Source of the DNA: Lachnospiraceae bacterium
Lineage (GTDB): Bacteria; Bacillota; Clostridia; Lachnospirales; Lachnospiraceae
Length of the DNA stretch: 64,000 bases
Direction: 5' to 3'
Assembly (NCBI GenBank): GCA_022768465.1
Contig: JALELZ010000033.1
Location: 35,438 to 99,437 of the forward strand
The notes under the pieces: model-generated
What the model saw: only the letters and a program-made list of their open reading frames with translations
Database searches by the model: none
Told to the model about the DNA's origin: nothing
In this document: one piece after another, positions 58,013 through 62,010 of the stretch
Layout of the letters: every line of letters starts with the position of its first letter
How positions within the stretch are numbered: the first letter of the stretch is position 1
Translations under genes and position numbers: made by a program

Positions 58013-58957
58013 TTATTCACCGACTCCATAAGGATATCCGTTCGGATTAACATGAACCGTGATATGCTTGATCTCAGGATGTTCTTTCTCAATCAAGCCA
58101 TGTACATCATCCGCAACAAGATGAGCTTCATGCAATGGCATGTTACCGTCAAGATTTATCTCAAGATCAGCGAAAAGTTTTTCTCCGAACTGTCTTGTCA
58201 TAAGTGAATCAATTCCAATGTTCATGTCATGCTCTTTTGAATATTCATTGACGATTTCTTTGATTTCTTTATCAGTTTCCGGGTCTCCCGCATGGTCGAC
58301 AAGCTTGTCAACAGCATCCAATATAACCTCCACAAGACCTACATGTATGATTATCGCACAGATAACAAGACCTGCAAGTAAATCCATGATAGGGAATCCC
58401 ATTCTTGCGCCGAGAATACCTATAAGAGAACCAACTGATGAGAATGCATCTGATCTGTGATGCCATGCATCCGCGCGAAAGGCACTGGACTCGATCTTAT
58501 CTGCCGCAAATATCGTATACCAATACATTCCTTCCTTTGCAGCTATGGAAACTACAGCTGCTGCTATCGCAATCATTCCCGGAGTCTGAGCAGTAAGATA
58601 TTCTTTATGAATAATACTCTGAATGCATCCCCAACCGATATGAACTCCTGTGTATGTAAGGATGAGTCCAAGCAATATTGATGCAAAGCATTCAAATCTC
58701 TCATGTCCGTAAGGGTGTGATGCATCTGCGCCTTTTTTAGATATCTTAACTCCTACAAATGCAATGAATGTTGCAAATACATCAGAAAGTGAATGAATGG
58801 CATCAGACACCATTGCAGTAGAATTACCTACAATTCCGGCAAACATCTTGAATGCAGTAAGTACTACATTGCCGGCAATTCCAACAGCTGCCACCTGATT
58901 AACGATTTTGTGTTTTTCAGCTTCTGTTAAATGAACCTTTGTTTTTTCTTTGCTCAT
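58013..58957 (-). CDS. cation diffusion facilitator (CDF) family metal exporter
   Basis: 314 aa; NSTAMVSDAIHSLSDVFATFIAFVGVKIS, HPYGHERFECFASI, ADAWHHRSDAFSSVGSLIGI. Confidence 0.96.
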   Translation of the reverse strand: MSKEKTKVHLTEAEKHKIVNQVAAVGIAGNVVLTAFKMFAGIVGNSTAMVSDAIHSLSDVFATFIAFVGVKISKKGADASHPYGHERFECFASILLGLILTYTGVHIGWGCIQSIIHKEYLTAQTPGMIAIAAAVVSIAAKEGMYWYTIFAADKIESSAFRADAWHHRSDAFSSVGSLIGILGARMGFPIMDLLAGLVICAIIIHVGLVEVILDAVDKLVDHAGDPETDKEIKEIVNEYSKEHDMNIGIDSLMTRQFGEKLFADLEINLDGNMPLHEAHLVADDVHGLIEKEHPEIKHITVHVNPNGYPYGVGE

Positions 58958-59044
58958 AGCTTTCTCCTGTCAGAAACAACGCATATCACGTTCCTTATAC
59001 AACAGCTTTCTTTGTATAAAAAAACTGCCATAAGTGCAGCTTAT

Positions 59045-59080
59045 AAAAAAGCTGCGGAACAAATACTACTGTCCCGCAGC
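59045..59080 (-). terminator. riboswitch expression-platform terminator
   Basis: Minus strand GCTGCGGGA-CAGTAGTATTTG-TTCCGCAGC followed by TTTTTT; overlaps the riboswitch GCGGGACAG core. Confidence 0.88.
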
Positions 59081-59160
59081 TATAAATATCAAAAATATAG
59101 TCTGCTGTCCGTAAAGACCCGGCTAACGATCACCCGCCGCCTGCTCAGTTTGTACTGTAG
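59055..59160 (-). ncRNA. NiCo (czcD-type) transition-metal riboswitch
   Basis: Minus strand ...ACTGAGCAGGC-(P2)-GCCGGGTC-(P3)-GGACAGCAG-(P4 CTATA..TATAG)-CTGCGGGACAG...; conserved core of the NiCo riboswitch four-way junction; 5' of a CDF gene. Confidence 0.88.
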
Positions 59161-59383
59161 AGATATGATACTTTTTAAGTGTCCTATTGCAGTGCAAATT
59201 GTTTAAACACATATTATCTTTCGAACCCCTTGTTAGTCAAGCGTAAACGTTAAAATAATTTAACCAATTTTCAAATATTCAATCATATACAATTAGAGCC
59301 TATGTTTCTTATATAATATTCACTAATATTAACGAAATATCGCACGATGGCAGTCAACTTATAAATGTTGATACACAAAAAAA

Positions 59384-59447: not shown

Positions 59448-60671
59448 TCAATTTTTGCCGTATGCAGCCTCAAGAGCCTGGGTGAAGTCTCTCTTAAGAT
59501 CCTCGATATTCTCGATACCAACAGAGAATCTAAGAAGACCATCTGTGATACCCATAGCATATCTCTGCTCACGTGTAAGATCTGAATGTGAGCTCATTGG
59601 AGGATATGACATAGTTGTTCTGTATCCGCCAAGTGTCATTGCATAGTGGCAAAGCTTAAGTGAACGCATGAACTTGTTCATCTTAGCCATCCAGTCAGCG
59701 CCAGCCTCAGCCTCCTCAGGAAGGATGATTGAAAGCATTGGGCCATAGTTTCCGTTAAACTGTTCCTTAGCAAGCTCGTGCTGTGGGCAGCTCTCAAGTG
59801 ATGGATGATAAACAGCCTTTACATATGGAGACTCCTCGAACATCTTAGCAAGAGCTGTAGCGTTATCGCTCTGTCTCTTTACACGAAGCTCAAGTGTTCT
59901 GATAGAACGGCAAACAAGCCAGCTATCGAATGGTGAAGCCTGGTTACCCATAAGCTGCTGCATATGGAATACCTTGTCAATAAGCTCAGCCTTACCTGTT
60001 GCTGAACCTGCAGTTGCATCAGAATGTCCGTTGTAGAACTTTGTAAGTGAGTTAACAACAATATCAGCACCAAGCTTAAGAGGCTTTACAAGTGCGCCTG
60101 TCATAAATGTGTTATCAATAACAAGGATAGCATTGTTAGCATGAGCGATCTCTGCAATAGCCTTGATGTTAGGAACAGCTATAACAGGGTTAGCAACTGT
60201 CTCACCATAGAAAAGTGTTGTATTAGGCTGTACTGCATTCTTGATAGCATCAAGATCAGTGAAGTCTACAAATGTAACTGTTACGCCATACTTTCCAAGA
60301 ATGTTTGTGAAGATCTCGATTGATTCACCATAAAGTGTGTCACCTGAAATGATATGATCTCCAGCCTTTGTATTAGCGATGATTGAAGCGCAGATTGCAC
60401 CCATACCAGCTCCGCAGCAAACTGAAGCCTCGCCGCCCTCGATGTAGCTCATAAGCTCATTAAGAGCTGAACGGTTAGGGTTACGATATCTGTTGTAGCA
60501 GAAGCCCTTCTCGTCATATCTCTTCTGAAGATCATCAAGGTCATTTACATTATGAGCTGTAGCAAGATGGATTGGAAGCTGCTCAGGATTTGTTGCAGGC
60601 TCTCTGAAATAAGCACCGGCCTCAAGAATATTTGTTTCAAAAGTGTTCTTTGGATCAAACTCACCGATCAT
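59448..60671 (-). CDS. trans-sulfuration family PLP-dependent enzyme (Cys/Met metabolism; methionine gamma-lyase/cystathionine lyase-like)
   Basis: 407 aa; CCGAGMGAICASIIANTKAGDHIISGDTLYGES, LVIDNTFMTGALVKPLKLGADIVVNSLTKFYNGHSDATAG (PLP Lys). Confidence 0.92.
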   Translation of the reverse strand: MIGEFDPKNTFETNILEAGAYFREPATNPEQLPIHLATAHNVNDLDDLQKRYDEKGFCYNRYRNPNRSALNELMSYIEGGEASVCCGAGMGAICASIIANTKAGDHIISGDTLYGESIEIFTNILGKYGVTVTFVDFTDLDAIKNAVQPNTTLFYGETVANPVIAVPNIKAIAEIAHANNAILVIDNTFMTGALVKPLKLGADIVVNSLTKFYNGHSDATAGSATGKAELIDKVFHMQQLMGNQASPFDSWLVCRSIRTLELRVKRQSDNATALAKMFEESPYVKAVYHPSLESCPQHELAKEQFNGNYGPMLSIILPEEAEAGADWMAKMNKFMRSLKLCHYAMTLGGYRTTMSYPPMSSHSDLTREQRYAMGITDGLLRFSVGIENIEDLKRDFTQALEAAYGKN

Positions 60672-60754: not shown

Positions 60755-61948
60755 TCAGTCAAGAGCTGTGAAAGCCTGCTTGAAGTCGTTGATAAGATCA
60801 TCAATGTCCTCAGTACCTGTTGATACTCTGAACATACCTGGTGTGATACCAATTGCTCTTCTGTCAGCATCAGGCATATGGCTGTGTGAAGAAGTGCATG
60901 GGTGGTTAAGTGTTGTTTTGAGTCCGCCAAGTGTTGTTGCATAGTGAACATACTGAAGCTTAGCCATGAATGCGTCGATCTTCTCCTCATCCTCTGTGCA
61001 AAGGATTATGCTGAGCATACCTGAGATCTTCTCGTCATTGCTCCAAAGCTTCTTAGCAATGTCTCTGTTTGTGAAGCTGTCAAGTGAAGGATGGTTAACC
61101 TTAACAACGTGTGGATCAGCCTCGAAGAACTGAGCAAGCTTAGCTGCGTTGTACATCTGTCTCTCGACTCTCAAGAATACTGTCTCAAGAGCTCTGATCA
61201 TCATCCAGCATGGGAATGGATCTGCAGGTGTACCGAAGAGCATTCTCATAGGTCTTACTGTCTCAATGATGTCATGGCTTGCTGTCATGCATCCAAGGAT
61301 AGCATCTGAATGTCCGTTAAGGAACTTTGTCATTGATGAGATAACGATATCTGCGCCAAGCTCAAGCGGTCTGATTGAGATAGGTGTTGTGAATGTGTTA
61401 TCCATCATAAGAAGTGCGCCATTCTTATGAGCAAGCTCTGCCATAGCAGGGATATCAATGATGTTCATTGTTGGGTTAGCGCAAACCTCTGAATAGATGA
61501 GCTTTGTGTTAGGCTTAATAGCTGCCTCAACATTCTTAATATCATCCATATCTACGAAGTCATGCTCTATGCCGAATCTGTCGAACATCTTTCCCCATAC
61601 GTCGAATGTCTCGCCATAGATGAACTTGTTGCAGATTACGTGGTCTCCGCTCTTAAGGAGTGAACCAACTGTTGTTGAGATTGAAGCCATACCTGATGAG
61701 AAGATAAGTGTATCCTTATCAGGAAGATTTGGAGCCTCAAGCTTTGTCATCATGCCTGCAAGTACATCTCTGTCAGGGTTGTTAGTACGAATATAAGTAT
61801 ATCCCTGTCTGTAAGCTTCCTTGATCTCTGAAAGAGTGTTAGCTCCGAAAGCTGTGCAAGGATAGTATGGGAAAGACTCTCCCTTACCAAGGTTAACTGC
61901 GTCTGCTCTGTAATTTCTGGTGTACAGAAGTTCTGTTGAAAGTGCCAT
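60755..61948 (-). CDS. trans-sulfuration family PLP-dependent enzyme (paralogue 2)
   Basis: MALSTELLYTRNYRADAVNLG...FSSGMASISTTVGSLLKSGDHVI...LLMMDNTFTTPISIRPLELGADIVISSMTKFLNGHSDAILG; ATG at 61948 preferred over 61963. Confidence 0.92.
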   Translation of the reverse strand: MALSTELLYTRNYRADAVNLGKGESFPYYPCTAFGANTLSEIKEAYRQGYTYIRTNNPDRDVLAGMMTKLEAPNLPDKDTLIFSSGMASISTTVGSLLKSGDHVICNKFIYGETFDVWGKMFDRFGIEHDFVDMDDIKNVEAAIKPNTKLIYSEVCANPTMNIIDIPAMAELAHKNGALLMMDNTFTTPISIRPLELGADIVISSMTKFLNGHSDAILGCMTASHDIIETVRPMRMLFGTPADPFPCWMMIRALETVFLRVERQMYNAAKLAQFFEADPHVVKVNHPSLDSFTNRDIAKKLWSNDEKISGMLSIILCTEDEEKIDAFMAKLQYVHYATTLGGLKTTLNHPCTSSHSHMPDADRRAIGITPGMFRVSTGTEDIDDLINDFKQAFTALD

Positions 61949-62010
61949 TTTTAATCCCTCCAATTTACTTAAAAAATAGTTTTAAGTTAATCCCTTTTGT
62001 TTACGCCCTA

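Follow-up and report, generated by a model that had tools for sequence, protein, structure and literature searches.

The locus

The window, by which we mean the whole 64-kb stretch of DNA that was analysed, carries on its minus strand a gene for a metal exporter of the CDF family, and about 110 nt upstream of this gene (58957-58013) lies a riboswitch aptamer. The features on which the analysis draws are listed below in the direction of transcription.

59213-59240, minus strand: candidate sigma-70-type promoter, with -35 TTGACT (59240-59235), a spacer of 16 nt and -10 GATAAT (59218-59213); 10/12 in a consensus scan
59188-59201, minus strand: 5' box CAATTTGCACTGCA (family consensus CTCTTTGCACTGCA), near the presumed 5' end of the transcript
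59198-59190, minus strand: core of the box, TTTGCACTG, which can pair with the flank CAGUACAAA in a proposed helix P0
59150-59158, minus strand: conserved 5' flank ACAGTACAA, part of the Rfam model, a possible partner of the box (in P0) or of the 5' arm of P1
59067-59158, minus strand: NiCo riboswitch aptamer (RF02683), cmscan 51 bits, E 1.1e-8
59149-59139, 59123-59118 and 59075-59069, minus strand: core segments (A)CUGAGCAGGC, GCCGGG and GGGACAG, all present, with the metal-binding G tracts
59050-59081, minus strand: terminator T1, 13 pairs, its 5' arm made of the 3' strand of P4 and the GGGACAG core, its 3' arm UUCCGCAGCU
59050-59045, minus strand: U-run of T1, directly after its 3' arm
59036-59055, minus strand: proposed antiterminator AT2, the 3' arm of T1, GCAGCUU (59055-59049), with the 5' arm of T2, AAGCUGC (59042-59036)
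59022-59042, minus strand: second terminator-like hairpin T2, 7 pairs, -7.1 kcal/mol, with a U-tract at 59024-59018
58013-58957, minus strand: CDF-family metal exporter gene, 314 aa, Cation_efflux and ZT_dimer (Pfam), TIGR01297 E 3.5e-67

Directly upstream of the riboswitch lie two adjacent genes for PLP enzymes of Cys/Met metabolism (59448-60671(-) and 60755-61963(-)), both methionine gamma-lyase/cystathionine synthase-like, and an 11-pair terminator at 59406-59382(-) parts them from it.

A complete NiCo aptamer with an overlapping terminator

When the window was scanned with cmscan against all families of Rfam 15, NiCo (RF02683) was the sole match above threshold. The match lies at 59158-59067(-), covers model positions 1-96 and is therefore complete, and reaches 51 bits (E 1.1e-8) where the curated cut-off is 37 bits, which bears out the class assignment made by an earlier note on this DNA and answers the covariance-model search that it had proposed. 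The core segments quoted there were all found on the minus strand at the place it gave, and both conserved GGG tracts of the aptamer are intact (59120-59118 and 59075-59073). We found no second NiCo element elsewhere in the genome, the copy in the window being the only one. The four-way junction that had been suggested holds for P1, P3, P4 and the proximal GGC/GCC part of P2, all of which pair, but not for distal P2, which is not a good helix and has four P2 positions at which the Rfam alignment flags non-standard pairs. P4 had been drawn with a bulge on both strands; the helix itself is present, with an A bulged on the 5' side only (GCAG-A-CUAUA / UAUAG-CUGC) and a contiguous 3' strand. The fold of the riboswitch leader is more stable than 199/200 dinucleotide shuffles (z -3.1). 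As certainly as sequence tests allow, the element genuinely belongs to the known NiCo class; its expression platform is an uncommon one.

The poor distal P2 could be taken as a sign that the aptamer has degenerated and lost metal sensing, leaving the exporter under other regulation, and the score of 51 bits does lie in the lower part of the relatives' range and under that of most congeners with a match, while most congeners are without a NiCo match at all. However, all core segments, both GGG tracts, P1, P3, P4 and the overlapping T1 have been retained, and we regard such a loss as highly improbable.

The last strands of the aptamer double as the 5' arm of T1. An overlapping terminator had been claimed as a 9-bp stem followed by a T-run, and it was recovered at 59081-59050(-) as a stem of 13 pairs with a U-run. 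Across a set of 173 distinct NiCo leaders, a T1 that overlaps the 3' strand of the aptamer is found in 157/173, so that an aptamer with T1 is the ordinary layout. By analogy with the characterised class (PMC7689651, PMC7917058), metal would be expected to block T1 and turn the gene on. Class membership and control through T1, taken alone and without the relay described below, seem to us close to certain.

A conserved 5' box and its possible partners

Most NiCo leaders open with a conserved box, CUCUUUGCACUGCA, which sits outside the Rfam model; in the window it lies at 59201-59188(-), and the earlier note had overlooked both this box and the T2 hairpin (59042-59022(-)). A search of the first 116 leaders, allowing up to 3 mismatches and up to 90 nt upstream of the aptamer, found the CTCTTTGCACTGCA box in 85/116, compared with 0.3% of shuffled upstream regions. 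In the full set of 173 leaders, box and flank occur together in 123, the box alone in none, the flank alone in 7 and neither in 43. The CTCTTTGCACTGCA box with a ACAGUACAA flank is seen in the window, in leaders L021, L124 and L153 and in about 120 others. Where a leader has a promoter match, the box usually begins 7-10 nt downstream of a recognisable -10 hexamer (about 12 nt in the window), and because it follows the -10 so closely it probably marks the transcript start. Between box and aptamer lie 4 to 74 nt, depending on the leader. The box is a more general observation than the tandem terminator described below. We also considered the box as a general operator and rejected this: the exact 14-mer occurs in 14/292 genomes of the class, 10 of them beside a NiCo element, and since our own chance estimate is about 5, the four other occurrences need no explanation.

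The core of the family box, UUUGCACUG, is complementary to the flank CAGUACAAA at 8/9 positions, and permutations of the box equal the energy of the P0 duplex in 447/20000 cases (2.2%). Covariation in P0 was sought and gave no informative signal, because the columns of box and flank are nearly invariant. The flank has a competing alternative, a hairpin with the 5' arm of P1 (CAGU-ACAA-ACUG), which appears in the centroid fold.

A second candidate partner of the box lies between T1 and the ribosome-binding site, where 39/79 testable leaders have a box-complementary site at p <= 0.05 against dinucleotide shuffles, with about 4 expected, these counts not being independent events because the leaders are related. 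Among 65 leaders the box gave 36 such sites and two control queries 5 and 4. The typical site reads AGUGCCAUAGAG. A motif ahead of the SD, AGUGCCAUAGAGCUAUC, which is complementary to the box, occurs downstream of T1 in L002, L021, L026, L029, L124, L132, L148 and others. Leaders with a degenerate CUCUU half of the box have a partner site in only 1/14 cases, compared with 40/65 for the others (Fisher p = 2e-4), and the window and the other T2 leaders all fall in the degenerate group. The window itself keeps the box core and has T2, and no pre-SD site in it pairs with the box (p = 0.86-0.91). As to what the pairing might do, protection of the 5' end of the read-through mRNA and an effect on translation are both guesses.

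A second terminator and a possible strand relay

On the 3' side of T1, the window carries the T2 hairpin, AAGCUGC-ACUUAUG-GCAGUUU followed by a U-run. We found a T2 between T1 and the gene in 7/173 leaders, namely that of the window (L001), L004 and L006 from the same genus, L044 and L235 from another genus of the family, L052 and L219. The hairpins flagged automatically in L068 and L110 run into T1 or the start region, so we set them aside and do not count them among the seven. The tandem terminator is thus uncommon, and it is backed by the comparison of leaders.

In all seven leaders the 3' arm of T1 is complementary to the 5' arm of T2, as in GCAGCUU/AAGCUGC (window), CGCGGCUUU/AAAGCUGCG (L004) and GCAGUCU/AGACUGC (L052), the match in L044 being weaker than in the others. 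Ranked against a background of 263 unrelated terminators, drawn from the relatives' loci and from the window, the duplex has p values of 0.087 (L001), 0.053 (L004), 0.015 (L006), 0.17 (L044), 0.011 (L235), 0.034 (L052) and 0.015 (L219), and Fisher's combination of the seven gives 2e-5, a value that overstates the case because the leaders are related. With the arms aligned, 92% of cells in the AT2 helix pair, compared with at most 39% in slid registers; two pairs have changed on both sides among these 7 related sequences, a result that column shuffles equal in 45/500 runs. An unconstrained RNAfold prediction for 59165-59015 places P2-P4 together with AT2 in the minimum free energy structure and T1 together with T2 in the centroid, and when P1 and P4 are constrained AT2 forms. 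Since the 3' arm of T1 can pair with the 5' arm of T2, one aptamer could switch both terminators, and the complementarity and the folds make it fair to suppose that T2 may come under aptamer control by a relay from T1. The window's own case for this relay is among the weakest of the seven (T2 -7.1 kcal/mol, AT2 p 0.087), and T2 could have arisen by partial duplication of T1, in which case the arms would match without selection for AT2. At 59032-58998(-) a long hairpin is possible after AT2 has formed, with the 3' arm and U-tract of T2 paired to downstream sequence; it would arise too late to prevent termination at T2.

Taking the class membership, the overlapping T1, T2, the complementarity of their arms in seven leaders and the exporter as they stand, we propose a NiCo transcriptional ON switch for the CDF exporter in which metal binding, termination, the direction of switching and the relay would work as follows. 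With metal absent, the strand GCUGCGGGACAG would depart from the aptamer to build T1, and the few polymerases that passed T1 would then run into T2. With metal bound in the four-way junction, at the G tracts 59120-59118 and 59075-59073, P1 and P4 would hold GCUGCGGGACAG and so prevent T1, whose 3' arm GCAGCUU would then be free to pair with the T2 5' arm AAGCUGC; once AT2 had formed, T2 would be disarmed as well and the exporter would be transcribed. We lean, with moderate confidence, towards this statement as a whole, relay included.

A plainer account is an ordinary NiCo switch that acts via T1 only, T2 being either a weak hairpin that arose by chance or a simple fail-safe terminator outside aptamer control. 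No T2 is present in 166/173 leaders, that of the window is weak at -7.1 kcal/mol, and in the Bc1 c-di-GMP riboswitch, likewise a two-terminator system, a T2 that remains folded masks the ligand response (PMC11218506). Yet T2 recurs 3' of T1 in seven leaders of differing sequence, its 5' arm matches the 3' arm of T1 in every one of them (in L044 more weakly), and a strong T2 such as those of L004 and L006 would, if constitutive, leave the exporter off. We see this T1-only account as a serious contender, although we would sooner doubt it than adopt it.

The proposed relay can be joined with the box in a broader and more tentative reading, in which NiCo switches exceed the annotated aptamer. The box CUCUUUGCACUGCA and the flank would form P0 beside P1, and in many species the box would also pair with an element before the ribosome-binding site that is found only in the read-through mRNA; in the lineage of the window this long-range pairing would have been lost and T2 gained, with one aptamer switching T2 by strand relay. 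We put this combination forward as a possibility that is rather doubtful in its entirety.

Comparison with known systems

The window shares with the NiCo (czcD) class, RF02683, the core segments, the four-way junction layout, the GGG tracts, the overlapping intrinsic terminator and the CDF gene downstream, but differs from it in a short, poorly paired distal P2 and in T2 with the AT2 relay that it may allow. Neither the 5' box nor P0 is covered by the RF02683 model, though most sampled members carry the box. The c-di-GMP-I riboswitch Bc1 of the Bacillus cereus group (PMC11218506) likewise combines one aptamer with two intrinsic terminators in a single expression platform; its ligand and aptamer are different, and its T2 stays folded with ligand, whereas in the window the 3' arm of T1 could disarm T2. 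The Na+/c-di-AMP tandem riboswitch (PMC9337991) also places two terminators one after the other ahead of a single gene, each with an aptamer of its own, in contrast to the single aptamer found in the window. Tandem NiCo systems were absent from a survey of 783 NiCo elements (PMC9481103). The literature searched, which left the primary NiCo papers outside its scope, gave no description of the 5' box or of the tandem terminator, and we do not claim novelty for either. If the relay is true, it would show one aptamer governing two terminators in series, with a tighter OFF state as the outcome. If the box has both of its possible partners, minimal NiCo constructs may miss part of the regulatory RNA, which bears on which metal, and what concentration range, a NiCo switch answers.

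The exporter, its likely metal and its relatives

The assignment of the downstream gene to the CDF exporters in the earlier note is well founded, with TIGR01297, Cation_efflux and ZT_dimer all matching, and the arrangement recurs across Clostridia. The best equivalog-type model for the protein is MamB, yet below the MamB cut-off, the Co/Ni exporter model DmeF scores poorly, and the protein aligns over its full length with FieF/YiiP. Its metal-site motifs are HxxxD in TM2 and HxxxD in TM5 (AWHHRSD, aligned to YiiP), a combination found in each of the 77 NiCo-linked CDFs that the motif search matched. An HxxxD rather than a DxxxD in TM5, together with the full-length CDF match, is consistent with the Fe/Zn-CDF group and rules out Mn-CDF only, since Zn- and Fe/Zn-CDF share HxxxD. 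This reading follows the classification in PMC1868760, in which HxxxD is inconsistent with Mn-CDF and does not tell the Zn- and Fe/Zn-CDF groups apart.

The same switch might have Fe(II) rather than Ni/Co as its physiological ligand, which would be compatible with the relay as well as with control through T1 only. The alignment with FieF/YiiP, the ranking of MamB over DmeF and the HxxxD/HxxxD motifs all agree with Fe(II), although motifs of this kind do not distinguish between Zn, Co and Fe. The original NiCo work reportedly described a Ni/Co-selective class, and this selectivity speaks against Fe(II). Later anaerobic work found that NiCo riboswitches respond to Fe(II) and Zn(II) too, and argued, by setting in vitro affinities against metal levels in cells, that sufficient concentrations are attained there by Fe(II) and Mn(II) alone (PMC7689651); a review names the class an Fe2+ riboswitch (PMC11477304). 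Judging from sequence, we consider the balance between Ni/Co and Fe(II) to be even.

Among the 80 nearest relatives of the exporter, 50 have a NiCo element upstream, and a NiCo element occurs in 7/25 genomes of the window's genus, 77/397 of its family and 42/292 of its class. Within the genus its distribution is patchy, one genome (G008) having a 55%-identical CDF and no NiCo match.
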